Under the pieces are notes generated by a model, which was not told the origin of the DNA, ran no database searches, and saw only the letters and a list, made by a program, of their open reading frames with translations. Position numbers and translations under genes: made by a program. Positions 4,436 through 31,099 of a stretch of DNA of 32,652 bases are shown in pieces. The stretch comes from Fragilaria crotonensis (Eukaryota > Bacillariophyta > Fragilariophyceae > Fragilariales > Fragilariaceae): the NCBI GenBank assembly GCA_022925895.1, contig JAKSYS010000695.1:1-32652 (forward strand). Direction: 5' to 3'. How positions within the stretch are numbered: position 1 is the stretch's first letter; the number at the start of each line of letters is the position of its first letter.

Positions 4436-4585
4436 TATATAAAACCTAATTATTGGGTTATCACCGTCATCGGTCTTTCGTCAAGGCCAATGTGTGTACC
4501 CCGCCGTGGCCTCACCATATTGCAAGTGGGCGACAGCTTATCTAATCCCTAACCCTAAAATTTCCCTCAGTCGATTCAGTCCCAT
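4436..4585 (-). other. 3' UTR of LINE B
   Basis: This 150-bp stretch lies between the ORF2 stop and the target-site duplication. The minus strand ends AATTAGGTTTTATATA. It includes two telomere-like units (CCCTAACCCTAA on the plus strand, 4547-4558), which are too few to be telomeric. LINE 3' ends are usually recognised by their own RT, so this is the probable priming template. Confidence 0.7.
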
Positions 4586-7500: not shown

Positions 7501-10404
7501 CTCTCTCTAGAGTATTTAACAGTAGGACCACAAGAGTTAACCACACTGCTGGAGATGCTCCGCTTCCTTGGCCAGTGCCGAATAATGGTTCCAAAGCAGT
7601 CCCGCTATATGCGTCTTCAGATACACCGTATATGGTTTTCACCATATATTGCATTAGTTCTAGTGATTTGGCGTGGGTTCTGATAGCATCTTCTGGCATC
7701 CCGCATCGCCTTGCTGCCAGCATTCCAAGCGCCACGATGATCCTGTCAAAACATGCTGACGCATCATTGTCAAATCGCGCATAGTTAACCTTAAGGAGTC
7801 GGCACATGTCCGTGGTGAGCTGATTTAGCATGACCGGATCCATTGTTGTTCTCCCTGGAACCGATCCATGTTGTCCGTCGTTGAGGAGATTCAATTTGAC
7901 CGCGCGTTTGACTAATCTTGACCCCCACATTATTTTTAAGAAAAGATTATAATCCGCCTCGAAAAGATGAATAATTCGTAATCGATTTATCCGAGGATTC
8001 CCTGTGTCTTTCTCGATCATAACATTTACCGCTTGACACCATCTCGGTATTGATATTCCCCTGGAAATTGCACTATTTATGAACTTGCGAAAACACTCTA
8101 AAAGCATGGTATCTTGAATCATTGCCTTGTAATGTCCCAAATGTCTGCCTGACGGTGACGTTGTCGTAGTCTCTTTCCATGACTTAAATCCTTTAACGAT
8201 ATCATCGGCGGTAATGACCTGGGAAATGGGATCTGTAGCCAAAACCGATTCCGGAATCCGAAAAGATGCGAGGAATTCTCGAAGGAGTTGTCTATCTCCG
8301 ATCCACTCTACCGGTACCTCCCCTTGTAATAGTGCTTCCGCTTCTGGGGTGAGACTCGTGAATGTTAGCGCGTCGTGTATCACTCCGTGTCCACACGGTG
8401 ATTCAGCTGCAGCCCTGAATGACTCTCTGTTAAATGTTAATAAGTGCTCTTCGATATCAGCTCTAGAGATCACGGTATCCCATATTAGGTTTTCGTGTTC
8501 ATTTGACTGAAGGACATTATGCACTTGTCCTGGGGCGGTTGGAAACTCCTGTGTTCTTGGACGCGGTACAAGAAGCTGTGTGAGCGATGAATATTCTGTT
8601 GGTCGCATGATCTGCCGTATTTTTCCAAAGAGTTGTCGACTTGTCTCACTCCGCATCGTGCGTTTGATAATCTTGGCCTTCCGTTTCGATTCCTGGTGTG
8701 TTGCTGTGTCTGTGTCCAGCTCATAGGATTCGAGTAACTCGCTGTAATTTTCGTGATGTAGCTCTGTCGCTGCTTTCTGAGTCATTCGAAGATGTTTGGT
8801 TGCCTTATTGAGATTGATTCTGACCTGTTCAATAGACAGCTTGGTTGATCGGCACGGGAGGACAAAATTTGGATCTCTTGATTGTATCTGGCGCTCCCAC
8901 CGGAGAAAAGTTGCAGTATAGTCTTCGTCATATTGAATTTCGCGAAGACGAAGTTTCCAATACCTCATGAGTACCCCCCGCATTTCGTAATCGCGGGGAC
9001 CATTTGTATAATTTGGGTGGAAGCCGGAGCATCTTCTCAGCTGCTCTCATAGCCCTGCCTTGGTCCTCGTCCCATGATGAAAGCAGTCGTCGTACCTGTT
9101 CACGTGATAGCGACTGATGCGTAGAATATAACGTGTCTATACGCTCTTTCATACTGTGAATGGAATAGTAGTTGCGCATCTCACGAAGATACTTCGATAC
9201 CAATTCCGGATTCCCGCTTTTTAGAGCTCTGCTGATGGATGGTGGTAGTTGCTGTTCGGTTATCTCTGCCCCAAATAGTTGAAGTATGTTGAGATCGATA
9301 TAGAGCGCACGGTGATCAGATTGTGGTCCCTCAAAGTAGGATAGTGTACCTTGCCGACTGATAGCTGCCACTGTTCTTGGGCATCCAAACATGTAATCGA
9401 TTCTTCTATGATCAGATCCAATGTATGTTGACGGAGCCGGAGATGATTTGTGCAGATCCTCTAGATCATGGGACAACAACATTTCACCTAGTTTGGTGTC
9501 TTTTTCGAGGAACGGCATTCGCATCCATCATGACGAGAATGGCATGGCCACTCGTCTGTAACCGTTTAATTGTGTTGGAGAGATCCGTTATAAATCTCGT
9601 TCGTGGTTGCGGGCTCCGTTCGCCTTTCTCCTGATAATACACGTATTCTCGATGAAACGTGCTTCCCAGTGGTGCCGTTGATATCGCGCCCGAACATGTC
9701 CTGTAGCCAGTAATGACGCTGAATTTTTGACCCGCCTTCCCAATTAAGGTGAATCCGCACCACCGTCCCAACCCAGTAGAATCGGTGATCGGTGATCCAA
9801 ATACCGAAGTCGTGAGAGGACCTCGTACGACTTGTGTTACTCCTCCAGCTTGGAAAGTTTCTTTGTCGTCCAGTGGATCAATGAGTGCTGTGGGCGCTCC
9901 AAAGACTGTTTTGCCGTACTGTAATTGACGCCGTACGCACTGCTTAAATGTAGATTGCATGTGCGCGTGTTGCCAGCCTGAATTCGTTTCAGCCATACCA
10001 AAAACGTCAACTGAGTATGAAAGCATTGAGGATAGAAAGTATTTGTAATCTTCACCTGAGCTTGAATACGTGAGTCCCTTAACATTCTGAAACATGAATC
10101 GGATGGTCTTTGGATCTTTATAGACAATCGCGTCCCCATATGTTACGTTCGCAGCTGTGTCCCCTTGAATTCGATGCGTTAATCGTCCGGGTCTGTACCG
10201 TGGAAATAGTAGTACCTGTGACATTGGAATATTCGGATGACGATCAACTCCTCTAGAGATATATCGTCCCCTCCGTTCTTCGGTTCCTGTTACTTCTTCG
10301 CCTTGCGAGTCACCTACGTCGTTGTTGTCTTCTGTGTCATCGGTGGTATACCTCTTGTGGTTGTCCAGAGGGATACGTTGTGTAGGATGTTCTGTCCTAC
10401 TCAT
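4586..10404 (-). pseudogene. LINE B ORF2: APE endonuclease, reverse transcriptase, RNase H, zinc knuckle; two frameshifts
   Basis: This is the replicase of LINE B, about 1,940 codons in three frame segments: 10404-~9515, ~9515-~8978 and ~8978-4586. The first slip is near 9511-9517, just after MMDANA (the endonuclease D-x-N motif). The second lies in a run of six G (C on the plus strand, 8974-8979), between SPRLRNAG and RYWKLRLR. Both look like one-base insertions relative to LINE C. Motifs in order: QNVKGL, AETNSGW, MMDANA and SDHRALYID (endonuclease); TTTSPSGRHLGHY, FDNDASACFDR, GTGQGSGASPAVW and FVDD (RT); SDGG, CELGG, TDSKSA and HVDALA (RNase H DEDD set); and CPCC..ETPTHVLRC (zinc knuckle, about 5230-5295). 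The start ATG overlaps the ORF1 stop. Confidence 0.88.
10401..10404 (-). promoter_or_regulatory. ATGA stop-start overlap between LINE B ORF1 and ORF2
   Basis: On the minus strand the ORF2 ATG (10404-10402) overlaps the ORF1 TGA (10403-10401). The geometry is the same as in LINEs A and C. Confidence 0.7.
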
Positions 10405-11078
10405 GTTGTATCGCCTCCCTCTGGATCACTTAGAGATTTGTATTGAGTGTCCAGATCGGGCATAACTTCAGTGTGGGTGGAAAATTCATCCGAGGAATCA
10501 TCTAGGAGCGATCCCCCAATTTGAATTGGATCTCCTTGATTGAAAAGATACCTGTTCGTCTCCAAGCGACTTGGATTGTCTGAATGTAATGCTGTGTCGG
10601 AGCCAAGTGACATATCTTCAAGATCAACATGAAGAGTACAATTATCCTTGTCCGATTGTTTTTGTTGGCGTGACTTCTTCTTATTTGGAGATGAAATGTG
10701 GTCTGAATGTTGCATATCCGTCTTTGATGTTGGCTTGTCTGCCTTGTTGATGGACATTGAGACATCTGTGGTTTCCTCCAGTACGACGCCTGGTGTTTGC
10801 TCCATTGTGCTTGACAATTCATCAATCGTTCGCCTCCGTGCCGTGCCTTCGGCGGTGTCGAGTTGTCGAGTGTCGGTCTGATTTTGGTGACGAATGGTAA
10901 TCGTTGTTAGTGTATCCATTTGAGATGCCATGCGATCGATGATCTCCGTCAGTCGTGATACCCTGGTGCTGAGTTCGACCAATTGAACATGTGTATCATG
11001 TTGACGTTCCATTGTCATGATAAGCTTATCACTGTTTTCTTGTAGTGTAGTGATAGTCTGTTGCAAAGAAGCGTCCAT
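10401..11078 (-). CDS. LINE B ORF1, 5'-truncated
   Basis: This 225-codon remnant of ORF1 begins MDASLQQ exactly at the insertion junction. An in-frame ATG also exists at 11102 but lies in LINE A. Residues 1-75 form a coiled-coil-like region (LQENSDKL, LVELSTRVSRLTEII). These are followed by a polar, acidic region with the basic SPNKKKSRQQK motif, equivalent to SPEKKKKR in A and SPEKKKVRAS in C. The globular N-terminal domain seen in LINE C ORF1 (some 700 residues) is missing, so this copy is 5'-truncated, as is common for LINEs. Whether the remnant is translated is unknown. Confidence 0.75.
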   Translation of the reverse strand: MDASLQQTITTLQENSDKLIMTMERQHDTHVQLVELSTRVSRLTEIIDRMASQMDTLTTITIRHQNQTDTRQLDTAEGTARRRTIDELSSTMEQTPGVVLEETTDVSMSINKADKPTSKTDMQHSDHISSPNKKKSRQQKQSDKDNCTLHVDLEDMSLGSDTALHSDNPSRLETNRYLFNQGDPIQIGGSLLDDSSDEFSTHTEVMPDLDTQYKSLSDPEGGDTT

Positions 11079-11097
11079 TTTTCTATCTGATGGATCA
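11079..11097 (+). repeat. Target-site duplication of LINE B, right copy (19 bp)
   Basis: It is an exact copy of 4417-4435. LINE A ORF2 resumes in phase at 11098 (codons DKTLSQVL). Confidence 0.95.
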
Positions 11098-14000
11098 GAC
11101 AAAACTCTCTCACAGGTCCTTGAACAAGCACAGAGGAACGCGCAGAAGTGGAATGATCTTCTCTATACTAGCGGCGGTGCACTGGAACTTTCAAAATGTT
11201 CTTGTCACATCTTGCACTGGTGGTTCTCGGCACAAGGATCCCCAGTTCTCGCACCCAAAACATCAACTCATCAAGAGTTTTTGACGGTACACGATAAAAC
11301 AACAGCAAGAGATCATGATTTGGAGCTCCTTTCTCCATATCAAGCGCATAAAACACTGGGACATTTCAAAGATCCTGCGGGTACCCAAAAAGAACAATAC
11401 AGAAGACTGCACTCCAAAAGTGAAAACTTAACGTCTTTTCTTTGGCGATGTCCCTTGACCAGATTAGAAGCGTGGACATTCTACTATGCCTGCTATCTTC
11501 CCAGTGTGAGTTACCCGCTTTCATGTTCGACATTATCATATAAACAGCTAGATCAAGTTCAACGGCGCGCGATGTCTATCATCGTTCCGAGATGCGGATT
11601 CAATCGTCATACAAAAAGAGAAGTCTTGTACGGACCAATAGAATTGGGAGGCGCAAACTTCAGACATCTCTACGTTGAACAAGGAATCGGACAGGTGGGA
11701 TTGTTTATAAGGAATTGGCGACAACAGTCAATAGCAGGGCGCCTGTTACGAATTGCGGTTGGATGGTTTCAATTCCAAGTCGGTACGTCATACTCCTTTT
11801 TGGAGAACGTTGATAAACCCTTGCCACACCTTGAATCGAAGTGGCTCCGGTCTCTTCGAGAGTTCTTAGCACATATCAACTCGTATCTACAACTCGACAA
11901 TGCGGGTATTCCCAAACTGCAACGGCATCACGATACACATATCATGGACGGGATATTATCATCTGGGCAATTCACGGCAGCGGAGGTTAGGCGCCTAAAT
12001 TATTGTCGGTTGTACCTCAAGGCACAAACAATTTCCGATTTGACAGATGTTTCAGGTACGCGATTAGATCCCTCAAAGCTGATCGGCCAGCCGGCAATCA
12101 CTAGCAGCAATACATATGGCATCCACATCAATCAAGATAGACCATCGGAGCTGGAATGGAAACTTTGGCGCAAGGCGAATGGAATATGGAGCAACGAACG
12201 TGGTGAACTACACCAATCACTCGGACCTTGGCTTTCTTCGATTAAAGAGCATCGTCAACAACATTATGCATACCAGTATAAACGACAACTATGGGTCCGA
12301 GATAATGACCAATATCAAATATGTACACGTCGGAACGGAGAGCGCGAAACGTACTACAGTATTGGCAATACTTGTTTTTGGCATGATATCGCAGCTGAAA
12401 GTTGCCCAGTCGAAGTCACCAGGACTTCGGCGGGCGCGTGGCGAATAACAGCGCAAACAACAATTGCGCTCATTCATCGGACGATTTTTCCGGCGACCTT
12501 TGATGAATACGTCTCAAGCCTTGCACCGTGGGAAACAGAACTACTTATGCACATTGAATTTTCTGAAGATCCTTTTTCCGTTAGTGATGCCCTCTCGCAT
12601 GGAGTACGAGGGGTTAGCGATGGATCAGTATGGTTAAAACAGACGGGCGCGTATGGATGGGCCATTAGCACCGACATTGGGGAGCGAGCGGTCGAAGGCA
12701 TGGGACCGGCACCAGGTGCAAATCCTAATTCATATCGCTCGGAAGCATATGGTATGCTCGCAATGCTGAGCTTCTTGAAGAGATTGGCAGAATTCACGTA
12801 CAAACACGAACCATGGCATGGTGTTATTGCTACTGACAGCCTTAGTCTGATCGATACAATCTTGGGAGTGACACGGAACGAATTTGGGGTGGCAAATCTA
12901 GATTCTCTCGAAGTGGAACCAGTCCAGCTTCCATTAGACCCACTCAGTCCAGAGTGGGATTTGGTGGTGAACATTCGGCGACTGCTTCACGAACTACCTG
13001 GTTTAAAGCTCAAGCACGTTAAAGGCCATCAAGATCGAGGAGTGGAGTACAGACGACTTAGTCTATTGGCTCAGCTTAACGTCGATGCGGACGCGTTAGC
13101 AAATAGATTCCAGCGGGAACATGGCGCAATCCGACCTTACGTGACTCTGACAGACGACGCCGGAGTTCATTTGGTTACACCCAAAGGCAGTATCACTTCA
13201 AATTACAAGAAGGCAATCCGTTATCAAGCAACTTACGGGCCATTACTGCGGTACATACAGGAGCGGAACAAGTGGACACCTTCAATAACAGAGCGGATTA
13301 ATTGGCAGGCGCACGGGCATAGCCTCAAGAAACGGATGGTGAGACGCGACCACTACGTGAAACTGGTTCATGGAATTCTACCTACAAATCACCACTTACA
13401 CCGACATGATCCGAACCGGAGAGGTTGTCCGATTTGTAGTCACCGAGATGAAGATTGGGCACACATCCTTCGGTGCCGACACACAACTCGCGCTGGGTGG
13501 AGAACCCGCATGTTGGCTTCTCTTAGAGCAACATGCGTGAAATGGAAAACGCGACCACGTCTTCAAACCATTCTCCTCGACGGACTTCAGGGATGGCTAG
13601 AGTGTGAAGATCCCGATGGTTATCAGTTGGCAGATTCGTTATATGAGGACGAGTTCACAGGCTTGATTGCTCAACAAAACAAAATTGGTTGGCATCAAGT
13701 TTTTTTGGGTCGTTTCAATGAAAAATGGAGCGAAATGCAAGACGTTTATTATACGACGAGACCCACTTACAATCCGAAGAAGTGTCGGACAGGATTACAC
13801 TGGCAAGTAGCTATTATCGGAAATATCTGGGACCAATGGTACTTGTTATGGGAGCAACGAAACCAGGACGTTCATGGTGCGGATGCTAGACTTATGGCTC
13901 AAACAGAGCGACGGAACGCATTGCGGACTTTACGTGAGATATATGCACTACGAGAGCATTATGAGCCATCAGCACGCGAATTGCTGATGGCCGACATCCG

Positions 14001-14151
14001 AGATCATGAGGCGCGATCAACGTGGCACCTTAAATCTTGGTTAGCTATTAACCAGCCTATCTTGCGAGCAAGTTTTCAACGTGCACGGAAATTGGCAATA
14101 TCAGGTGTGAGGTCGCTACGGTCGTATTGGCCAAGCACTTCAACGAACTAG
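11098..14151 (+). CDS. LINE A ORF2, C-terminal part: RT thumb, RNase H, zinc knuckle
   Basis: This is the remaining 1,017 codons of LINE A ORF2, in exact phase with 1481-4435. Together they give about 2,002 residues. The open frame extends upstream to 11017, but those codons are LINE B antisense and the target repeat. It opens with the RT thumb (SGGALELSKCS). RNase H follows: SDGSVWL near 12615, SEAYG near 12740, ATDSLSL near 12830, then VKGHQ and NVDADALA near 13080, a full acidic set. A C-x2-C, H-x4-C knuckle (CPICSHRDEDWAHILRC) lies at about 13425-13475. A conserved tryptophan-rich tail (IGWHQVFLGRFNEKW) has its counterpart in LINE B (IGWHNALKGYLSVEW). RNase H would remove the RNA strand; the knuckle probably binds nucleic acid. 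Confidence 0.9.
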   Translation, partial: DKTLSQVLEQAQRNAQKWNDLLYTSGGALELSKCSCHILHWWFSAQGSPVLAPKTSTHQEFLTVHDKTTARDHDLELLSPYQAHKTLGHFKDPAGTQKEQYRRLHSKSENLTSFLWRCPLTRLEAWTFYYACYLPSVSYPLSCSTLSYKQLDQVQRRAMSIIVPRCGFNRHTKREVLYGPIELGGANFRHLYVEQGIGQVGLFIRNWRQQSIAGRLLRIAVGWFQFQVGTSYSFLENVDKPLPHLESKWLRSLREFLAHINSYLQLDNAGIPKLQRHHDTHIMDGILSSGQFTAAEVRRLNYCRLYLKAQTISDLTDVSGTRLDPSKLIGQPAITSSNTYGIHINQDRPSELEWKLWRKANGIWSNERGELHQSLGPWLSSIKEHRQQHYAYQYKRQLWVRDNDQYQICTRRNGERETYYSIGNTCFWHDIAAESCPVEVTRTSAGAWRITAQTTIALIHRTIFPATFDEYVSSLAPWETELLMHIEFSEDPFSVSDALSHGVRGVSDGSVWLKQTGAYGWAISTDIGERAVEGMGPAPGANPNSYRSEAYGMLAMLSFLKRLAEFTYKHEPWHGVIATDSLSLIDTILGVTRNEFGVANLDSLEVEPVQLPLDPLSPEWDLVVNIRRLLHELPGLKLKHVKGHQDRGVEYRRLSLLAQLNVDADALANRFQREHGAIRPYVTLTDDAGVHLVTPKGSITSNYKKAIRYQATYGPLLRYIQERNKWTPSITERINWQAHGHSLKKRMVRRDHYVKLVHGILPTNHHLHRHDPNRRGCPICSHRDEDWAHILRCRHTTRAGWRTRMLASLRATCVKWKTRPRLQTILLDGLQGWLECEDPDGYQLADSLYEDEFTGLIAQQNKIGWHQVFLGRFNEKWSEMQDVYYTTRPTYNPKKCRTGLHWQVAIIGNIWDQWYLLWEQRNQDVHGADARLMAQTERRNALRTLREIYALREHYEPSARELLMADIRDHEARSTWHLKSWLAINQPILRASFQRARKLAISGVRSLRSYWPSTSTN

Positions 14152-14258
14152 GGAAGGCAACAAATATTACGTGAAGTCCTGCTATACAAAGCACGGGTTT
14201 CACCGTACGGGTCGAATGTCTGTATCTCCAGGACATAGCGGTAGTACGTTAAATAGAG
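14152..14258 (+). other. 3' UTR and 3' end of LINE A; junction with transposase
   Basis: About 105 bp with no coding sequence lie between the ORF2 stop and the first transposase-like codons. The stretch ends GAGTTGAGGTTTTTTTTATT, recalling the LINE B tail (AGGTTTTATATA). The exact end of A cannot be set, because its 5' target-site duplication is outside the window. Confidence 0.5.
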
Positions 14259-15916
14259 TTGAGGTTTTTTTTATTTGTTATACAGGATATGCAAGAAGGT
14301 GATGCCCTTTGCGGTCGTTATGGCCCCCACACGCCGCAGGTGCAACGCCATTGTCGATCATGCAATGTCACTTATGAAGATTTAGATTCTCCCTATTTCA
14401 CATGTCGTTACTTGCTTGCCGAACCAATGGCAATGATTGCTGCCAGTGACAACAAGGCAATTCGCGTTAGGTGGTCACAACATGCAGTGCACAATGCCTT
14501 CCAAGATGAAGTGCTTGCTGATCATGTACGCGGTATCTTTGGTGCAACTCCTGTGGAAACCATGCATGCCTTTCGCAAAGGTTTAATTGAGCACGTTACC
14601 TTTTTGGTGTTAGAAAATGTTCCTGCTTCTCGCAAAGCCGCTCTGGACAATCTTGCAATTCAATTTCATCAGCGACACCGTCAAACGTACCGCTCACGAT
14701 ATCCGGCTACCGACTTTAGTCGTGGTGTGACCAATCTAACAAAAGTAACTGCGCGCGAACGCCTTGGTTTGGTTTTCCTGTTTGTCATATTGTCCCAATA
14801 TGATGAAGGCTGGGATATATTGGACGAAACGTTTGAGCGCCGAAGCATTGCTACTGTGAAAAACATTGTTGAAGTGTTCGAAGCACTTCTCTGTTTTGAT
14901 GCCTGGCTTATGCAAGACAGATTTTGGGATACTTCAAACAGCACAAACGCAATTCAATCTGCACGTTCGTCAATAGAAGCGTTATTACGGTTGTGTAAAA
15001 CCAACATCCCTGCATTGAAGGAAAATTGTTGGAAATTTCCAAAGTTTCATGAATTGTTGCACATTGTTGATGACATCGAACGATTTGGGGCACCACGAAA
15101 CTTTAATGCCGAACGACCAGAATCGCTATTGATTTATGCTGCCAAACGTCCTGGACGTCGGGCTCAAAAACGACATGCAGGAATTATGTATGAACTGCAA
15201 TCTGCACAACGCCTTGCGGACTCCCATATCATTAATTTGGTTCACACACGTATCTGGGGTGACAACCAAGATCTCGATGAATCAAGCGACTCCGACGAAA
15301 ACAGCGATGATGATGACGACACAACCGAATCTGCCATTTTGCAAACGTCTGGCCACGCCACTTTTGCGACCGTGACGTGCGTCGTTGAAGGGTCTTGCGA
15401 TATTGCTCCGCAATGCAAAGTGGTATGGCATAGCTGTACTGACCTTCAACGGATGCGGTTGCCAACAGCATTGCTCGAGTTTCTGATTAACATTTTGGTC
15501 TTCATGTCCGCATTGCAACTGAATATGTGCGGCACATTTATACTTTTCGATGTCATCCTGCCTACCAATCTGGCGGAGCTGTCTACGATTGGATGAATGT
15601 CCAGTTCAATGATGATAGTATTTGTCCTTGTCGATTAGCTGCCGTTGTTGTATTGGATGACGATCCAAACAACCCTGAACGATTTGCTTTGGTTGTTCAG
15701 GCAGCTATGAAACGGTCGCACATTGATTCCGTTTTATTTACAGAATGGAGTTGGTCAAGCACCTACCTGACCATATCGCCCAACGCAATTGATTCCCCTT
15801 GTTTTGTGGTTTCCATTAAGGATGATGATTCAAAAGTTTTGGTAACAAAACCGTATGACGAGTGGCCCGCCCAGTTTACCACTCTCCATCACTATCCATC
15901 ACAGAATTCAACTTAA
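14259..15916 (+). pseudogene. DNA-transposon transposase, C-terminal part (Tnp2/CACTA- or Plavaka-like), frameshifted
   Basis: The protein would catalyse cut-and-paste movement. The visible part starts RFFLFVIQDMQEGDALCGRYG, followed by QRHCRSCNV, the Asp plus CxxC-type pattern typical of Tnp2/Plavaka-like transposases (gD....CG....CR.C). A long helical region follows, then NFNAERPES and KRPGRRAQKR near 15100-15175, an acidic serine stretch, and a C-terminal module (FRCHPAYQSGGAVYDWMNVQF, about 15547-15610). The frame changes near 15488-15492: the upstream frame is open to 15596 but its end is out of register, while the second frame carries CHPAYQ onward to 15916. One base seems lost. The N-terminal half is absent; LINE A abuts the first homologous residues, so the missing part is probably left of the window. 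The superfamily assignment is tentative. Confidence 0.55.
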
Positions 15917-16010
15917 ATTAATAAGATCAGAAATTAAATGTCAAACTTAATGTAAAGCAATCAAATGTATGTCATACGTAATGTAAATCATTCACATAGA
16001 TTGTAGTTCC
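15917..16010. other. Convergent intergenic spacer
   Basis: This 94-bp AT-rich stretch separates the stops of the transposase (+) and the companion gene (-). It holds two similar segments (ATGTAAAGCAATC, ATGTAAATCATTC), presumably overlapping 3' UTRs. No gene is seen. Confidence 0.5.
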
Positions 16011-19000
16011 TCATGCAAGCGTCATCAGATCAAGTTTGTGCTTTTTTGTCCCTTTGTACCTTAGGAAATATCCACGGCGAACAAATGAACTCTTCACTTC
16101 TGCTGTTGAAGTGCAATAATCAAGTGCCTCTTGGCACAACGGGAGTGCAACCACTTCATTTGCGTCATACACAAATCCTCCATGAATTGTTACCGCATGA
16201 GAACAATTGCCGTCAGATGCCAACAAGACACCAACCAAAATATGGCTCATCCAATAGATCTTTCTGCCAATCAAAACTTTTAGGTATCCTTTCAATAACA
16301 ATCCACTTAGGTAGAATATTCCTTGCACGCAGCATCACGCAATCAAGAGCATCAACGACAGCACCTTTCAAGATTTCCTCACCATAGAAATCTATTTCTG
16401 CTGCTTCTTTCTCAAATCCAAGTGAGTGAAGAGCTGAAGCTAACGATTTCGACACGCACAAATCCTTGCCATCCTTCTGTGTGAAGCGTACGGTCGGGGC
16501 ACCAGGAACCTCCAAATGAGGATGCAGATGCAGATGAGAATGTTTAAAATCTCCAACTGGAACATCCACGAAACCTCTCTTCGAACTCTTAAGTTCATTA
16601 GCAAAGGCGTCACCGAAATTTTTTGACGAAAGTCTCGTCAAGGTCTGTTTCTTTCCCATTGTTCATTCTGCCGACCCACTTTTCTTTTATATTGATCGTT
16701 CTGCGAGGCACTTCTTCGTCATCTTCTTCTTCGTCCAAGATTGTTCCTTTAAAGGTTTTGCCCGTCTTTTTCTTGTATGCCAGACGAATCGCTCTAGCTC
16801 TACTTGAACGTCTATTCTGCTTCTCTCTCAAATACTTTGTCATTGCCTCACTGTCAATGACGCGCATCTGTCGAGGTCCAGTGTAACGCACACGAACAAT
16901 TTTTTGTTTTCCGATCCTCACCTCGATGTCCCGCGGAGCTTGTATCCAAGTATTGTCAAGGCGCATATTAATAATATGTTGAACATCTTCTTCGGAAAAT
17001 TCATCACGGACCCAAGCTTCATCCACCTGCATTTCCTCTTCCTGTTCTATAAAATTATCTTTGTTGTCCGGATCAACATCATAAAATACCAAACGTGCCT
17101 TGAAAGTGTTGGTTCTGCTCACGTATTTGAGACCTTTTACCATGGAACGCCTGGTAAACATAAACTCTTTGGTAAGCTTCTTCTTGAATGTGGCTCGTTC
17201 ATCCTTCAATGCCTTTATAAGAGTGCGTATCCACTGTTGTTCCTTTTCGGTATTGTCGGGGTTTGTAGTTGCGCTACCCACGTAGATATTAGGTTCTTAT
17301 GCTTTTCCTCGGAATCCCACCCCCAAGCCTCAAAACTATCAGAAATGAATTGCTGGAGCTCACGTTCGTAGTCGGCATCGCGTTTCACCATAGGCTCTTC
17401 TTCCTCATGGTTGGTCCGATACTTGTCTTGGAAGCTTTTAATAGATTTCAAAGATTGGGTGCATATCTTCTTTCTCAATGAAGCCTCGTACTCTGCTTCC
17501 ATCGCGTCAAGTTTTTCCTCTTCCTCAACTTGCTTTTTGCGGGCATTTCTTGCTCTTTTCTTTTGATTCTCTGTTAAAGATTTGAATACCTCGTTATCAT
17601 CAGAGTCAAGTCTCAATCTTTTGATCCAATCCACTTTTGCCTCTGAAGGCCGCTTGGGTATTCGCAGACGTTTGGGATCGAAAGATTTCAAATACTTTAC
17701 TGTCACCTTGTTAGGATCGTCCGCAGTAGTTTCATGACATGGCGGGGACACGGCAGAAGTTTCATCACTGGCTCTGGTAGCATCTTGCTTTTCACCCAAA
17801 CCATTCGTGACTTCTATTGTTGCGAAAATATCATGATTTTCATCTTGGTTGTCACGCATAACATTATCACCGAATTCATTTGGGACTTCCATGCCTGCAT
17901 GGACATCTCTAATTTCAGCTGTGACATCATCACCTAATTCATTGATGGCTGAAAATGTTGCTGTTTGAACAGCAACATTTTCAGCAACGGGAATGGCATT
18001 GACTTGGCTTTGGGTTACGAACGCAAACCTGACAACCCCGATTTCTGGTTTCTTGTCTTCGCTTTTACGAAAAGCTGAGTCGTTACTGGCCCCGTCGACA
18101 TTGCTTGAATTTGCGTCTTGAAATTCTTGTTCATCATCTGTATCTTGTAACACAAAGTCTGATTCATTATTCGTATCAGATCCCTGCACATGAGCAGATG
18201 GTGTTGTAATGTCCATGACAAGTTCCTCACGTCGTGCTTGAGTCATTTTGGTTGGTGTGGTCAAATCCACAACACTTCCTACCATAACGAAAGGTTGATT
18301 GGTTGGAGGTGCTTGTTCAGCCTGCCGAAGCACGAGAGCAGCTTTCTCCTTGGTCTCTTTCGAGATAATTCGTTTTTTACCACGAGGCCACGAAAGTAAG
18401 TCCATGGTGGAAACATACGCAATGTCCGGTTCATTTTTCTTGTCCAGCATGTATGGACCTCCAACGAATTGAAACTCAGCCATTCGATCAAACAAGGTAA
18501 ACCACTGCTCTCTAACTGTCGAAAGGTAATCTTTCTCCTTTTTCTTTTTCGATCCAATAGCATCATCATGACCTGGAAGCTTCTTCATGATGCTAACCGG
18601 CATGTGACAAAAAACCTCACCACTGCTTTCACAACGATATGTTGGCATGTTTGCTCTCGAAAATAGATCATCAAACAAGAAGTCTTCGTTTCGAGGGAGA
18701 AATTCCCGGAACAGAATTCCAATTGTTGCACAGACACCAACACCACAATTGTAGCCGTCCTTCTGCAATGGGAAGTATCCATCTTCGTGACGCGCAGTGC
18801 CGGGAAAAAATCGGTCCCTAACATGTCTCCTTCGGTATTTGACCCAAAAGGTTCAATGAATGAAATTCGTTGACTTCCCAGGTTCGATTTCATGTGAATT
18901 TCATAAGAAGCACACAAGTTTAAAAACCAAATAACTCCTTGGTCTAACAAAACCTTGCGTGTACCATCATTGCGCAACGAGCAATACCGAAAGAAGCAAG

Positions 19001-20870
19001 GTCGCAGAACTGTTCCTGTGTTTGATGAGGAGTTGGTTTGTTCTTTGCTTTCGAAAATGGAATCGGCGTTGAACACAAACGTGGCAGACCAATGGTCGCA
19101 ACCTTCACAAAATGGAAACACAATTATTCTTCGTTCAAGCAAACCAGGATTCCGACTGACCACTTTGACGAGAAGGTTGCTCATGTGATTATTGTAATTT
19201 GACAATGCATTGGCAACCTCATGTCCGAGTCTTTCTCTAACAACTGCGTTCACTTCGTCAGAAGAACGAATTCCATCGTCAAGAATTGCACGAAGCGTTG
19301 CGGCTTGCCTCAACAACTTCTTATAGGCAACGTATGAACCATAGGCAATCGATATGCCTTCGCAAATACTAAACGGCACTACAAAAGCGGAATCTTCGTA
19401 CCGTCCGTCGAGCATCAAAGTTGCAACCATCAAATCCATTTCACTAGATGACATCCAAGTTGTGCCTTCAGAGTGGCTATGTATGATCCTTCGCAATATC
19501 GATATGTGACCTTTGACTGGAAGAGATGTAGCAGGCACAGGATTTGCATAGGTTGGAGGTAGTAGTTCTTGTATGCGTGGAAGTCCTTTGAGAAGCTTTT
19601 CAATCAAAGAAATTGAATACGACAGTCGCGTCCCTTTCGGTCCAAAACTTGGTGGTGGATACTGACACCACATAGCTTTCAAGGGTATGTGAACATTTTC
19701 GTCCAGTTGCAGGCTTTCGTTCGTTGCTCCTGACATCACCAGAGATGCATCGTCATCAATTTCAATCATGCTTCGTAATTGTTGGTGGCGCAAGTGCATC
19801 AACTTAGTGGCGGATTGCCCAATTTGTTCAGGATCATCACCCCAAAATGAAAATGTAGATTGTCGACGGCCTCCCTTTTTCTTATTCGGTGGAACTGCAA
19901 AAAGGACATCTTGCAACTTCTTAGGAAGCAATGTGAAACCATCGTCGTGATTCGAATTCAGTCGTTGAAAGCCCAGCATACAGTAAAATCTGAATGCACC
20001 AGCTTCGTGGCATTGCAAAAGACTTCAATATTGCTCCATCTTGGAATGCTGCACATTGCTTGATAATGAGTATAAACATGAACTGGCCAATCCCTTGACG
20101 CCATGATGCAGCAATAGAAGGCATCGGATGTGTCCTGTCAGAAACTGCCAACCATGTTAGCATGACATCGGTCTCCATCAGTGTCTCTCTTATCAGCGTC
20201 ATCCAAAGACACAGATTTTGGAGCCGTAGCCGGAGATCTGGATCCTGAGGGCTTGAGTCATCATCTGCTTCATCAGGACATACGAACGATACGATGCAGC
20301 TGATACAACATGAATGTTTTTGCGTAAATATAATGTTGATTTGGGCAAGTCTTTGCTTCCAACTTTCGATGCCAATAACATAACTGTCGTATCCCGATTG
20401 AGCGACAGACCAATTTTGTAGGTGTTCTCCTCGTTTGCCTCAAAATTGGTTAAATAAAACTTTTTCGCAACAGCTGTAAAGAATTCGAGCTTCGCCGTAC
20501 TTTCAGGATTTTTCGTTTTATCAACACGAAAAACTGTTGCTCTGGGCTCGACCATAACGATATGGTAGAGCCACTTTGAGTTATCGCCGTCGCTTGGATC
20601 CAGAAAGCGCCACATTCGCAAGTCCGTGCCCCAACTTTTAAATCTTTCTAATTGCGTTTCGAACACGCCCACTCGACGTATCGTTTTAAAGCGTTGCACG
20701 ACACCTCGGAGAGAATGCTTTCCATCACTTGGCAATTTTTGTAGATCCAAGAGCCCATTGAAGCGGTACGCATCGGTGCGATATGTCCAAGAAGAAAGTG
20801 GCATGTTGCATGACAAACTTTGGGGCTCACCAGCTGCCAGACTGGATGAAGCAGCTGTGGATGATTCCAT
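16011..20870 (-). pseudogene. Transposon companion protein with Ulp1-like (C48) protease and a second papain-like Cys/His module; multiple frameshifts
   Basis: Reading right to left, about 1,620 codons are carried in overlapping frames with slips near 20205, 20018, 18805, 17290, 16621 and 16235. Start chosen: ATG at 20870 (MESSTAASS); ATG at 21053 is also in frame. The N-terminal third is unrecognised. The Ulp1/SUMO-protease core has GCDHWSATFVFN (His codon 19092-19094), FIEPFGSN (possible acidic residue) and LQKDGYNCGVGVC (Gln 18763-18765, Cys 18745-18747). A Glu/Lys-rich, coiled-coil-like region follows (near 17440-17600), then a basic segment. The C-terminus has DLCVSKSLASALHSLGF (Cys 16456-16458) and CSHAVTIHGGFVYDAN (His 16197-16199, Asp 16164-16166), resembling a papain-fold Cys-His-Asp set. 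Ulp1-type companions are known in several DNA-transposon superfamilies. The gene converges on the transposase. No GT-AG intron explains the slips, so this copy is probably decayed or mis-sequenced. Confidence 0.6.
17948..17985. repeat. 38-bp near-perfect palindrome inside the companion gene
   Basis: Two 18-bp arms (17948-17965 and 17968-17985) are exact reverse complements separated by TG. They lie inside the linker after the Ulp1 domain and encode part of VAENVAVQTATFSAIN on the minus strand. Confidence 0.9.
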
Positions 20871-22186
20871 TTCTCTTCGCCTGCCTCTGATTGTAGGGAT
20901 CCAGCAGTGGGAAGTTGTTCTGGTTAGAATGCAGTGCTTCGTTGTCGTGATGCAGCGGTCGCTGCACTGTCTGTTCTCGACAGTACAGCATTGACTGATT
21001 GCAATTGCTGCCGTTGAAGAAGACAACTGCTGCATCAGCCTGTGATGCAGCATTCGCTATAATGTCAATCCATGTCTGAACGATGATCTTCTACACTAGT
21101 AGAAGCATTCTCACCATGATTTGAAACTTGCTGCATGCAGCGTCGATTCATCATTGTTGTGATTCATCATCAAAGTGCCTTCGCAGAATCAGTATTCGAC
21201 ATAATTAATCGAATGGATTGTAGCTGATCTTCCTTTCTTCAAAGAACAAGTATCAAGAATGGGACGGTCACTAGAAATGACCGGGATTTGTTGAATCAAC
21301 AACCTCAAGGACGTACACTAAGTCTCAGGTGCTTTGCTGGTTAGGCACGACGTGAGGACACACTACTTTAAATGAATAAAGCAAGATTCCCCAGGTGACC
21401 AGCGTCCACACAAGAAACAGATGTAACGCCAAGCCCCACTCTTGGTACAGTCTTTCGAAAGGAATGACCAATGGTATTCGAAAGGAACGCTTGCTTTGTT
21501 GGTTGAAGCAAAGGACTGTAAAGGTGGTGAAGTAGGACAAGAGAAGTGAGTGTGAAATGTATACACACCGGACGGTAAAAGTGGTTGCGCTGATCAAACA
21601 CTGTGTCCTTGATTGTAGAACAATACTGCATACGGAGTTATGCGGTACTGTGCTACAGTACACAACTGCTGTACTGGAGTGTAGCGTAGGTACTGTACCC
21701 ACGTCGAGAAATCACGGGCACTGGGCAGGTTCGTATATCCGGGTTACAAGACGATTTCACACAACAGCAAAATGATGAAGTCCATTCAAAAGGGGGAAAA
21801 AAAACAACAACACAAACACAGAACTCACACAAATAACACCAATGAGATGGTGGTGATCAAGAGGAGGTGTTCTGAAGAAAAGAGGTGGCAATAGGAAGGT
21901 GTGAAGAGAGAGTGAAGTATGCTGTTGAAGGTGACAGGTTGTGTGCATTTTCTGTCAAACAACAACAAGATCGCTCAAGAACGAGTGAAATACCGTATTT
22001 TTAACGGTTTTTTAACGAGATTTAAAAAAATATGTATTGCCGAGTAGTGGAGTACTACTTGCAGCTGTAGTACACACTCCTAAGTGCGACACCACCAGTC
22101 AGTACTACCAAACGAGTACTGGCACTTCGACATGTTAGTACAGCATCATCGTGTAACAGTGAACGTTAACCCCGCAACAACACACG
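20871..22186. other. 1.3-kb non-coding region rich in short inverted repeats; promoter or subterminal region
   Basis: No convincing gene is present; open frames here are short and low-complexity. Near 20945-21070 are several GCTGCAT/ATGCAGC copies, including the inverted pair CTGCATCA..TGATGCAG. At about 21091-21108 is CTTCTAC-ACTA-GTAGAAG, and near 21135 the perfect palindrome GCTGCATGCAGC. At 21645-21661 is GTACTGT-GCT-ACAGTAC, and at 21689-21699 GGTACTGTACC. A further cluster of AGTAC/GTACT motifs lies at 22050-22142. The region could hold the promoter of the companion gene, transposase-binding subterminal repeats, or a boundary between two elements. Confidence 0.5.
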
Positions 22187-22684
22187 TCAATGAAGCTTGC
22201 GTTTCTTTGCCAACGGCGTTGGGGCGGTATAAGTACCATGATCAGAAGCATACGACTCGTTAGAGTGAACAAACGGCATGTTTTCCTTCTCGGAATGTAT
22301 GCTGGGCGGGGATACAGACACAGACATGGATTCATTCGATTTTGGTTTGAAAACATTTTGCTTTGATTGAGGTTTGGAACATTTGCTCAATGATAGTTCG
22401 GTTTGCCCAGCATGGAGGTGACATTGGTTGTCTTCTTTGAATGAATTCGATACCGCTTCGTTAACGTATTCGGTATTGTCAGCAAGCGCCTGCAACATCT
22501 GTGATGTAACGACGGGCAGTGGCTGGACAAAGCACCGAAGATCAAAACAGTGAAATTCATCCGGTGAGGGGCATTCTTGACACAAATTTACGGAACCGAC
22601 TGGTGATGAGCAAACAACGGGTGATGAAGTCATTATTGATTGACTTGTGGCGGAATCGCCAGATGCAACGTCTCCACGTTCCAT
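22187..22684 (-). CDS. Unrecognised 165-aa protein with a C-terminal nuclear-localisation-like tail
   Basis: One uninterrupted frame starts MERGDVASG and ends PLAKKRKLH. I do not recognise a family. It is Ser/Pro-rich and probably largely disordered. A Cys-containing segment (LCQECPSPDEFHCFDLRC) near residues 34-51 might bind metal, though its spacing matches no named finger. The terminal AKKRK is a classical monopartite nuclear signal. It is transcribed divergently from the four-exon gene at 22947, with a 262-bp shared upstream region, so the two may be co-regulated. It could be an accessory protein of the neighbouring DNA transposon. Its reality rests on frame length, the divergent arrangement and the NLS only. 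Confidence 0.45.
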   Translation of the reverse strand: MERGDVASGDSATSQSIMTSSPVVCSSPVGSVNLCQECPSPDEFHCFDLRCFVQPLPVVTSQMLQALADNTEYVNEAVSNSFKEDNQCHLHAGQTELSLSKCSKPQSKQNVFKPKSNESMSVSVSPPSIHSEKENMPFVHSNESYASDHGTYTAPTPLAKKRKLH

Positions 22685-22946
22685 GTGGCTGAGCAGTATA
22701 AATTAAAATTGCTGCCGCCATTTTTTGGTGGCATGAACGGTCACGTCAGACGTGTGTGTTACAGTGCGAACCAAGCAAATTTTAAATAATGTTATATTCG
22801 ATTTCAGACATGTAAAATAACATAACAATTCAAAGCTTGGTACTCGTACATTGGTAACGTAAAGGTTTACATGCCACAACACATTTATACGAAAGGACAC
22901 GCAAGAAGACCTGGTGGCTTTGAACGGATAGACACAAAAATGCACA
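22685..22946. promoter_or_regulatory. Putative bidirectional promoter region
   Basis: This is a 262-bp gap between two divergent start codons. It is AT-rich toward the left gene. A TATAAATT stretch lies at about 22697, but it is only some 15 bp from the left start codon, too close to be a normal TATA box for it. No other clear core element is seen. Confidence 0.35.
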
Positions 22947-23008
22947 ATGTCACGCAAAACGCAGAATCGGAAACCAGCTGCAAACAAAGCCTGGACCATG
23001 GAGATTGA
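22940..23008 (+). promoter_or_regulatory. Out-of-frame upstream ATG overlapping the four-exon gene start
   Basis: An ATG at 22940 opens a 22-codon frame that stops at 23008, beyond the ATG at 22947 and the alternative ATG at 22998. If transcribed it could lower translation from either start or indicate transcription starting downstream of it. Confidence 0.35.
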
Positions 23009-24402
23009 TCCGACTAATGCTTTGCTTGCCTCGTTAACAAGTGCTCAAGTTCCAGCTGTTGCTGAAAAACAAACGATAAAAGTAGCGTCTAACACAGAGC
23101 AGCATCATCAACGTGGTGCACAACCATCGGCATCAAATGGATGCTTTTCGTCAATTACGGCGGATCTCACCACAAGTCAAGCACGCGTTTCACCATTGCC
23201 AATGTGTGTGCAATTTGAAACAGATGCGGTAGGTGGGCACATGTTACAACCAATGGTAAGCCATGCCCCGTGTGATATGACATTGAGCGTGTCGACAAAA
23301 CAGTTGCAGGTTTTAGTGACAGGCTGCGTGAAGCAGCAATTGTTTCGGAGAGTTAAATTTTTTGACGATGACTTGCATGGGGACTATGATTACAATCCGG
23401 AGTCTGTGTGTGGTATGGTGCGTAATTACTGCAACGTTTCTTCTGTCGAAACAAACTTGCAATGGTGGCACGAAACACGAAAGAAAATTAAACGCACTCT
23501 TGGAAATCATCGCAACAACTGCATTAAAGCAATGCGTTTACGTTTTCGAGGTATGTGCAACAATCCGAATAAACAGGTTTCTTTATTATGATGTGACTAA
23601 CAACTGCCAATTGTACAGATGGCGAAACGGGCAAGATCAATGGTTACCAAAGGATTACCGGTAGTGATGACGACATTGCCTACATGCTACAAATGCGACA
23701 GAATCAGGTCCATTACATTGCATTGATGGATGTCTTTGCCCCTTGTATTGTTTCTAGCAGTGTGTGGAACAACGATGCCCTCATGGCCAAGTATTGTGGA
23801 GACAATCAAGACAATTTTCAGGAATATGTTCTAACCATTAGTAGTGACGAAGCGTTTATGTTGTTGGTGTTGGTAAACTACGCTGCGCGTTGGGCAGCAG
23901 AATTACAAATGGAAAAGAAGATGGTGAGTCATTATTGCGGTTTGCCAACTGTTGCATTCGTCAACCTGCTTACGAACAAACATGCAGGTGATGCCTTTGA
24001 TGCATAACGCAGCAGAAATACAGCTGCCAGTAAGTACGATTTTATTCGTGTGTAAATGTGGACCAATGAACAACCCGCCCGACCCTAACGAATTCATCCC
24101 ACTTTTTGCGACAGCTTCCGAAGTATACGCATTCGCGCGTTAGTCGCCAGCAGCAAGCCAATGGTGGCATTGGATGGTCTGACGATGGCATTGCAAAATA
24201 TAACGAGCTTTACGATCTTGTGGAAGTTGATCGTCAGTTGCGAGGCAACGCCTTCAATCAGGAGTTGTTGAAGGTTCACCAGAAACGGCGTCAGAAGAAT
24301 AAATCATCCCACGCACCCATGGTTAACAATGAACGGGCAAAGAAGCGAAAACCTCGCGACGATCTTCGAAAGAGTCAGGCGTTCGATCGTGAGCCGAAAT
24401 GA
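22947..24402 (+). CDS. Unrecognised four-exon gene, 400 codons, apparently intact
   Basis: Exons 22947-23550, 23619-23923, 23988-24029 and 24151-24402 join in phase through three GT-AG introns of 68, 64 and 121 nt (donors GTATGT, GTGAGT, GTAAGT; acceptors TACAG, TGCAG, GCCAG). The product starts MSRKTQNRKPA. It has a disordered N-terminus, a compact core (VTGCVKQQLFRRVKFFDDD, WWHETRKKIKRTLGNHRNNC, DDDIAYMLQ) and a C-terminal segment (GWSDDGIAKYNELYDLVEVDRQLRG) ending in a very basic Lys/Arg tail. No named domain is recognised. The basic ends and tryptophan-rich helices would suit a nuclear, perhaps DNA-binding, role, which is inference. ATG 22998 (CCATGG, in frame) is an alternative start in better context. 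The clean introns contrast with the broken companion gene, suggesting selection or recent arrival. Confidence 0.6.
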
Positions 24403-24911
24403 CGCCATTGTAACAATGCGTCGTGTTGTGTGGCTTTAGAGAGAACACGGTTTTCTGTGGTTTTAGGAATATGCATTATAATGATTCAGAAAGATGAATA
24501 GCCGTTACTATTAACAACGCATAGTCTTTCAAAGATAGATGATAATAATACGCCATAAAACGCGTCACATAACTTCAGGAACACTTTGTCAACAATTCTA
24601 TCAAACTGAAAAGCATATTGCGTATTACGTAATTATTGAACCAAATGTATATGCAGTAATTTCACAGGACGCGATTTGTAAATTGAAGTAGAAACGTCAT
24701 TGATTTTTTGGTTAAGATGAAAACCGTATTCAGGAATATGAACTGCATCTATCAGCATTACGTTATTGTATACTCAGACGTACGCAAAATTGTGCGTACC
24801 TCAACACGATTTACAACCAAAATGCTAAATATATACCTTAGAAAATACAACTCGTTCTGAAAACGAAGATTTGGGAAATATTTTTATCCTACATATCGGT
24901 GCCCTTAGATG
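24403..24911. other. AT-rich non-coding stretch; possible right terminus of the DNA transposon
   Basis: There is no coding sequence. It contains the palindrome ATTACGTAAT (24624-24633) and the inverted pair GTACGCA-AAATTG-TGCGTAC (24780-24799). It ends where LINE C homology begins abruptly, inside the LINE C ORF2 frame. The outer sequence read from the LINE side begins TAAGGGCACCGATATGTAGG, which could be a terminal inverted repeat, but the partner end is not in the window. Confidence 0.4.
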
Positions 24912-27900
24912 TTATGAAAGACTCGTACATCGGAGGACTTGAGCCGAGGTGATAACAAACGTGTGGCAAGAGCGTCTGACTTCTTTTTGAGGTACTGTAT
25001 ATGGTCCGAGAAGTTACCCAGAGGATTCAGGAACACTCCAAGAATGCGGGAAGACCTGTCCAAAGGAACACGCTGTATGGTTGTAATGTGTCCAGTATCC
25101 GGGGCCGTTAACTCGATGGTGCTGTCGTTGTCGTTAACGTTTCGCAGTCTTGGACGACCAGAGTGCCATTCCCAATACATTGCGTACCAGTTGCATTTTG
25201 AGAGATTAAGCTTTCCGCCAGATAAGTGAAGGAGATGTGACCATGTCTGGGAGACTTCCTGCAAACGGTGTATGAGTTCGTTGAGAGTTTGCTGCCCGTA
25301 ACTGTCGGTAAATCCGAGGTACGTATCGTCGACGAAAGCGTCCACTAAACGAGAGTGAGTGAGTTCAGGTGATTGGAACGTCATTCGTTCAGGCCCAACT
25401 TTATCAAGAGTGTGAAGTAAAAGGACAACCAAAGAAAGCCAGACTGCCGGAGATGCGCCGCTTCCCTGGCCAGTGCCGAATAATGGTTCGAAATTGGTCC
25501 CATGATAATTCTCGTTGGATACCCCATAAAGTGTTTTTACTGTGTATTTCATGAGTTCAAGTGCTGTAGCATGACTGGAGATGGCAGAGTCTGGCATTCC
25601 GCATCGTCTTGCAGCCATCATTCCAAGTGCAACAATAATTCGATCGTAGCATGCCGACGCGTCGTTGTCAAAACGTAGGAGATTGATCTTCATGATTCGA
25701 CACATGTCGGTTGTTAGCTGGGTCATCATAATGGGGTCCATGGTGGTTCTTCGAGGAGTTGATCCGTGTTGTCCCGCATGAAGAAGGTCTAGATCGTCGG
25801 CTCTTTTGACGAGGCGATGTCCCCACATGAGCTTCAAAATGAAATTGAAGTCAGCTTCGAATAGATGAATAATGCGAAGCCTATTTATATGTGGTTTGCC
25901 TGGATCCTTTTCGATCATGACGTTTGTGGCGTTACTCCATCTTGGAAGAGACAAGCCGTGTGCAAGGACAATGGATAAAAACTGCTGTAAACAGCTTAAG
26001 AGATCCGGATCCTGAATGAGTGCCCGATAGTGCCCCAAATGTCGACCAGAGGGCGAAGTGGTTGTTGATTCTTTCCACCTTGAGAAGCCTTTCCAGACGT
26101 CGTTTTCGGTAATATCGATAGAGATGGGGTCTGATGCAAGAACCTCTGGTGGTATAGTGAAAGACAATAGAAATTCCTTCAAAAGTTCATCGTCTCCATA
26201 CCAATGTGGAGGAACGATGCCTACCAACATGTCTTTCGCTTCGATTGAAAGACTCGAGAAAGTTAGAGCGTCATGAATCATTCCTTTCCCGCAGGGTGAA
26301 GAAGCCGCAGCCCGGAATGCGTCTCTGTTAAAGGTTAGAAGGTGTTTTTCGATATCGGTCTTCTCAAGCACTGTGTCCCATATCACTTCCGACGGATCAG
26401 TGTTAGTAAGAAAAGCGTGGACGTGATCTGAAGGTTGGAGAGGCTGACTGTCTGAATTACAAGGTACCAGGATCTTAGATAATTGTGAGAACGGTTCCGC
26501 TTTCAGTTCGGTATTCAAAAGCTTGAAGATAGCACGGCACGATTCCGTCTGGATGGTCCGTCGAACAATAGTTGCCTTTCGTTTCGATTCTTCTTTAGTC
26601 GATGGAGACTCATCTTGTGCATATGTATCGAGAAGATCCTCGTACGATTGCAGACGAAGATCTTGGGAGCGAGCTTGGCAGCGACGGAAGTGCAGTGTCG
26701 CCTGGTTCAAATGCCTGCGAATTTCGTCTGTAGATAGAGTGTGATTTAGGAAAGGTAGAGAGAACGACCGATCATGACGTTGGATACGAGCCTGCCACTT
26801 TGTGAACAGAGCAGTGTAGTCCCTTGACTCTTGAGTTCCTCGGAGACGAAGAATCCAGTACCTTCTGATGACGGCTGCGTTTCGTAGTTGCGGTGACCAA
26901 GCATACTTTTTAGGAGGAATGGTGAGACGTTTTTCCGAATTCTTCATCGCCCGGCCCTGGTCTGCATCCCATTTGATAAGTTGATGAAAAATCTCGCTTT
27001 TGGCCATTGAGGTGTGGTTCTTGTACAACTCGTTTATTCTGTGGATCATATTGTGAGAAGCATAGTATTCTTTCATGTGGCGTATGTAAGTTGATACTAA
27101 TTCTGGATTGTTAGTGTGGAGGGCGCGATGGGAAGGAGGCGACATTTTTTGTGGCCTCATATTCTTGCGGATTTCATCGATGCAGAAGTCAACATAGAGC
27201 CCGCGGTGATCAGATTGGGGTCCTTCTTGGTACGACAAGGATCCAGAACGAACGCATAATTTCTCGAGATCATCGCTGCATAGAATATAGTCGATACGGC
27301 GTGATGCCGAACCAATGTACGTTGACGGAGGTGGATGATGACGATGAAGATCAACGAGTGCGCAAGATGTGGTAAATTCTTCGAACCGCCTTTCGCTTTG
27401 AAGATCTGAGTTTGCATCCATCATCAAAATGATAGAGTGTCCATTTTGTTGTAGCTGGTTAATGAGTATTCCGAGGTGTTGGAAGAAAAGCTTTCTTGGA
27501 TTAGGAGACGCTATTCCTTGATCACGGAAGAACTGGTATTCTCGAGAAAATGAACTTCCCAGTGGGGATGTCCTTATGTTTCCGCCGCACACTCGGTATG
27601 CTGTAATGACGGAGAGCAGAAAATTGTTAGATCCTCGAATAGTAAAACCGCACCAGCGTCCCAGGCCTGTTGTGTCTAAGATGCTGTCTCCAAGAATGCT
27701 GGACGTGATAGCTCCCGTGGAAAGAACCAGACTACCGCCTGAGTGGAATGAAGTGCCCGACGGCGCTTGATCAACTTCTACCGATGGATATCCGAAAGCA
27801 ACTTTGCTTTGAATGCTATGTCGTCGCAGGATTTTTCGGAAGTCTGCCTGTAGATGAGGTTGCTGCCAACTTGTATTAGTCTCGGCGAGACCGGATATAT

Positions 27901-31017: not shown

Positions 31018-31099
31018 GGTGATCAGCACGAGAAGGCGCAGTACTTTTTCAGCTAGAAAACGGTTGACGGACAGAAAGGTGGTGTAAAAACTTAGTAAA

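Follow-up and report, generated by a model that had tools for sequence, protein, structure and literature searches.

A broken minus-strand gene chain of Fragilaria crotonensis with an Ulp1-like part and a possible second papain-like module, next to a transposase-like gene

The frame chain

We analysed a stretch of 32,652 nt from contig JAKSYS010000695.1 of Fragilaria crotonensis (called the window hereafter). Its minus-strand region 20024-16011 carries the boxes of an Ulp1-like peptidase and, about 769 codons further on, a second box with Cys, His and Asx (Asp or Asn) residues. We give an even chance to this region being what is left of an accessory gene that belonged to an EnSpm/Plavaka-like DNA transposon; the ancestral gene would have combined an Ulp1-like domain with a C-terminal papain-fold module. 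As indicated by the listing of open reading frames (ORFs), the locus consists of five stop-free minus-strand frames that overlap end to end without a gap and are connected by four frame switches. The pieces, together with a stretch lying upstream, are as follows.

18588-20024, minus strand: piece 1, carrying an upstream part and the Ulp1-like domain's first half, with FPFCEGCDHWSATF and CFFRYCSL
17218-18852, minus strand: piece 2, QKDGYNCG and the other half of the Ulp1-like domain, followed by a long charged linker
16613-17296, minus strand: piece 3, charged middle region with no credible family match
16216-16662, minus strand: piece 4, QKDGKDLC (16479-16456) and the putative Cys-helix DLCVSKSLASALHSLGF (16464-16414)
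16014-16334, minus strand: piece 5, SDGNCSHAVTIHGGFVYDAN (16217-16158) with the putative His/Asx strands, followed by a stop codon (16013-16011)
20202-21056, minus strand: possible 5' extension of the companion gene, presumably attached to piece 1 across 20201-20025, which would hold further frame switches or a gap

The motifs quoted in the first-pass annotation (DHW, QKDGYNCG, DLCVSKSLASALHSLGF and CSHAVTIHGGFVYDAN, the last at 16205-16158 in piece 5) were all confirmed on the minus strand, and with them the spacing given above. It had also placed them in the same gene, which cannot be maintained in the sense of one open gene, since the motif sets stand in different reading frames. Indeed, the putative Ulp1 set and the putative second Cys/His/Asx set are each interrupted by a frame switch of their own. 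Inside piece 2 (17948-17985) there is a perfect inverted repeat whose 18-base arms stand 2 bases apart.

Codon usage was scored with a model trained on seven other ORFs of the window. Because in four of the five segments of the chain neither of the other two minus frames scored as high as the open one, it is likely that the chain derives from one ancestral gene, now broken. The weakest support of the five was found for segment 16014-16215 (202 bases), where the open frame reached 7.9 against 9.1 for a minus frame containing five stops. For the upstream stretch 21053-20199, codon usage was non-discriminating (29.9 versus 30.5). The codon-usage test is support and not proof, and it is weakest for the His/Asx piece. 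Whatever its ancestor, the gene as it now stands is disrupted and would not be expected to yield the full protein.

The Ulp1-like part and the C-terminal module

In the Ulp1 family (C48) the order of the residues is His, Asp, Gln, Cys, carried by HW, DSL-like and Q(x5)C boxes. The HW and Q(x5)C boxes were both found here, the former as DHW at 19097-19089 (piece 1, within FPFCEGCDHWSATF) and the latter as QKDGYNCG at 18765-18742 (piece 2). At the DSL-type Asp position stands CFFRYCSL, whose YCSL (18986-18975) we place by eye opposite the DSL of Ulp1 motifs; Cys is found there in place of Asp. As this position reads YCSL, the catalytic triad of this copy may be incomplete.

When the pieces of the chain were searched singly against Pfam, no credible match was obtained (best E 0.066). 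The Ulp1-like pieces were then joined with an X at the frame switch, and Peptidase_C48 (PF02902) was the sole Pfam family on the joined piece at E up to 10. It gave E 0.0068 (16.7 bits) for a joined piece of 491 aa and E 0.002 (18.5 bits) for one of 205 aa, both scores falling under the curated cut-off of 20.7 bits. The Ulp1 set had been described as clear; its Ulp1-like character is weakly supported by this sole family, and "clear" is too strong a word for matches below the cut-off. From the boxes and the profile match, an Ulp1-like nature of the first protease domain appears plausible. No relative was met in viral contigs scanned with the Ulp1-like pieces.

The C-terminal module offers C68, H154 and either D165 or N167 (module numbering) as candidate residues. 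A QKDG box stands ahead of both Cys residues of the gene (QKDGYNCG and QKDGKDLC), an arrangement that, counted post hoc, was equalled by 15 of 20,000 shuffles. A second papain-like module is possible.

Several more specific assignments of the module were tried and rejected. OTU peptidases have an Asp three residues before the Cys and a polar or aromatic residue two after the His; in the module these positions hold Lys (QKDGKDLC) and Val (SHAV), and no OTU match was obtained in Pfam at E up to 10. The common QKDG box had suggested an internal duplication of the Ulp1-like domain; when the window was compared with itself, however, the two parts did not match each other at E <= 1. A match to the motif pattern in viral contigs looks like chance, the motif lying (by eye) inside a 104-aa ORF. 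The same holds for four matches in prokaryote contigs, which fell in a 16-codon frame, in a frame of 95 codons and in two long unrelated proteins. As for the VTD deubiquitinases, they have an invariable Asp-x-His (PMC9741609), whereas the module reads C-S-H, with Cys two residues before His.

The transposase-like neighbour and other elements of the window

Two features of the plus strand adjoin the chain.

14253-15593, plus strand: C-terminal half of a transposase-like gene, assigned from its motifs QDMQEGD, CRSC (C(2)C), HELLH (H(3)H) and NAERPES
15491-15916, plus strand: a stretch in a different frame, with a stop, that probably encodes the C-terminal end of the transposase-like protein and would continue the preceding feature

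The stop of the transposase-like gene (ending at 15916) and that of the companion (16013-16011) are separated by 94 bases. Because a frameshifted transposase-like gene thus ends 94 bases off, tail to tail, it is reasonable to call the chain the companion gene of a transposon. The transposase-like ORF shows C(2)C, H(3)H and then E, and it appears to resemble Plavaka beyond these motifs. The motif order fits the scheme of the CMCT clade (EnSpm, Plavaka and kin), in which C(2)C and H(3-4)H lie between the second D and the last E (PMC12730594). Viral contigs scanned with the transposase-like ORF, and with a neighbouring retroelement, gave no relative.

EnSpm/Plavaka elements have CA..TG termini and target-site duplications of 2-5 bp. 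The present case differs from them in that no such termini or target-site duplication were found in 14100-24920 (the borders may lie outside the window), and in that its transposase is known from the second half alone. A terminal sequence of plant En/Spm has one exact match (11047-11035, minus strand), which was discarded as a border since it falls inside the first ORF (10401-11102) of a retroelement.

A minus-strand retroelement (about 4436-11078) is bordered by an exact direct repeat of 19 bases (4417-4435 and 11079-11097). When its flanks are joined, an open frame results that continues through the reverse-transcriptase region, which means that one retroelement sits inside another and that 19 bases of target site were duplicated. 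The minus-strand endonuclease/reverse-transcriptase elements at 10404-4586 and 28207-24905 are related, with 56% identity across 659 residues. The reading frame of the first is broken near 9.5 and 8.98 kb, and an open frame of the second runs to 24905. At 28204-32598 (minus strand) an ORF of 1464 aa looks chimeric: a central stretch is flanked by endonuclease-like fragments, which are supported by Pfam (Exo_endo_phos, E 0.0023) and by matches at 32439-32275 and 31377-31057 to the element at 24905-28207. This central stretch, which to us resembles gag, is perhaps an in-frame insertion. The G+C content is 0.52 at 31-32 kb. On the plus strand, the open stretches 22947-23591 and 23684-24007 lie in different frames, the first without a credible Pfam match (best E 0.12), and may represent another broken gene.

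Weighing of the readings and relation to known systems

Several results weigh against an ancestral accessory gene with an Ulp1-like and a papain-fold part. Besides the sub-threshold Peptidase_C48 scores, a PDB sequence search with the shorter Ulp1-like piece returned only three unrelated chains (best E 0.07). The C-terminal module matched no Pfam or PHROGs family at E up to 10; its NCBIfam search gave one family, citF, at E 0.2, and its PDB sequence searches gave one chain at E 1.6 and three chains at E 0.2-0.48 over 18 residues, none of these being credible. No relative of the module was found in viral contigs or prokaryote genomes. Likewise, tblastn of piece 4 retrieved three phage records (best E 6) and two plasmid records (best E 3), none of them a relative. 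All these collections are apparently poor in eukaryote sequence, so that they tell little of its spread. At the DNA level, a plus-strand frame outscored the open minus frame by codon usage in three of the five segments: 23.8 versus 22.2 at 16640-17230 (14 stops in the plus frame), 27.0 versus 13.8 at 16216-16640 (7 stops) and 12.5 versus 7.9 at 16014-16215 (no stops). A plus-strand ORF of 124 aa (16013-16387) lies opposite the His/Asx piece and overlaps the His motif; it is probably a shadow frame. Finally, the transposase-like ORF had no Pfam match at E up to 10, its loose motif order also occurred in 306 of 5,000 shuffles, and no terminal inverted repeat was recognised in 14100-24920.

We consider it unlikely that the organism has an intact gene whose frame switches stem from introns or errors of the assembly. 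Short homopolymers are present in every frame overlap, as errors of long reads would give, and phase-fitting GT..YAG pairs of 40-300 bases exist at each switch (40, 15, 11 and 16 pairs at J1 to J4, counted irrespective of internal stops). However, the donor is consensus-like in only 2, 1, 2 and 3 of those pairs. Introns using such donors would remove 218-295 bases of the coding pieces at J2 and J3 and the Cys motif or the His motif itself at J4, and at J1 their position downstream of QKDGYNCG would leave that box out of frame. What remains after introns is frameshifting by decay or by assembly error. Disruptions are denser at this locus than in the neighbouring retroelement ORFs (5 in 5,675 bases versus 2 in 15,138 bases, P 0.019, from our own small counts, which leave out the upstream stretch 21056-20025, the first ORFs of the retroelements and 28204-32598), and this favours decay. 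It seems quite improbable to us that two unrelated relics, an Ulp1-like companion and a separate gene for the C-terminal module, merely adjoin. The module does possess an in-frame ATG of its own (16659), but all five frames overlap in order with no gap between them, and in the middle piece the open frame scores best by codon usage among the minus frames.

To a different explanation of the C-terminal part we give somewhat less than an even chance: the module would be another small alpha/beta domain, binding DNA or protein, and its Cys, His and Asx would reflect pattern-seeking in decayed sequence. The bare Cys-His-Asx set with papain-like spacing occurred in 18,935 of 20,000 shuffles. For comparison, 132 segments of 215 aa were cut from 13 ORF stretches in the window, three of which are other parts of the companion gene, and 85 of the segments had the set. 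No peptidase family was obtained at E up to 10. On the other hand, the pattern including helix and strand context was rarer (199 of 20,000 shuffles and 2 of the 132 segments), as counted with a post hoc pattern composed when the sequence was already known. AlphaFold2 models made without relatives had a pLDDT of 31.6 for the 215 residues and of 41.2 for a trimmed module of 154 residues, 145 of which were below 50. In this low-confidence 154-residue model a helix begins three residues after the Cys and four strands follow, with the His in the second and the Asp at the end of the third, which is the order of elements in papain. The quality of both models is too low to tell whether Cys, His and Asp come together. 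Foldseek searches of the PDB with the better, 154-residue model and with the 215-residue model gave 207 and 29 matches at E <= 10, respectively, and none at E <= 0.001. The want of a significant match is noted on the side against a papain fold, and we draw no conclusion from the matches themselves. Among the best 50 of the 207, four rows are papain-fold-bearing, UCH-L3 (ranks 29 and 38), the transporter PCAT1 (rank 41, through its C39 domain) and UCH-L1 (rank 50). They have probabilities of 0.09 or less, stand among many unrelated folds and count for little.

In the reading that we prefer, a relic of an accessory gene stands tail to tail with a half-preserved and likewise frameshifted transposase-like gene, with retroelements on either side. 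The intact ancestor would most likely have made a single protein, at least about 1,340 residues long, in which a long charged linker separated the Ulp1-like peptidase of the first half from a C-terminal globular module. The Ulp1-like part might strip SUMO or ubiquitin from the transposase or from host repair or silencing factors, and this deconjugation would favour transposition. We infer that the C-terminal module is probably a papain-fold domain, with the Cys just before a helix, the His on a strand and the Asp/Asn 11-13 residues on. It could be a further deconjugating enzyme, or a pseudo-enzyme that binds substrates, and a second protease is a reasonable guess. More doubtful is a two-headed deconjugating enzyme of an undescribed family, in which a circularly permuted, Ulp1-like papain-fold peptidase (His before Cys) and an unpermuted one (Cys before His) would share one companion protein and each possess the same QKDG oxyanion-type box ahead of its Cys.

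The first-pass annotation had stated that Ulp1 companions of DNA transposons are known, and this is established: the Ginger1 transposase carries OTU or Ulp1 and never both (PMC2836005). More generally, proteases of the SUMO/ubiquitin type are carried by several kinds of DNA transposon (PMC2836005, PMC9741609). The chain would resemble the Ulp1/C48 accessory proteases of Mutator-like elements and Ginger1 in that a cut-and-paste transposon encodes a protein with an Ulp1-like domain (PMC2836005). In Ginger1, however, Ulp1 stands at the C-terminus of the transposase itself, whereas here it belongs to an apparently separate, convergent gene and is followed by another module. Helitrons provide transposon proteins with a pair of cysteine peptidase domains, 121 of the VTD-containing ones having OTU as well and one zebrafish Helitron having two VTDs (PMC9741609); the second domain is putative in our case. 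Helitrons are rolling-circle elements with a RepHel protein, and their two domains are VTD and OTU, not Ulp1. These VTD+OTU Helitrons also make it too strong, in general, to call a two-protease companion undescribed. In literature mostly outside subscription journals, no paper on Ulp1 together with a second, papain-like peptidase in an EnSpm/Plavaka-like element was found. TET/JBP-associated transposons are reportedly a subject of Iyer and colleagues.

The case rests on a single broken copy. If it is true, a two-domain companion of a cut-and-paste element would parallel the VTD+OTU Helitrons, and would suggest that transposons have repeatedly needed more than one deconjugating activity.

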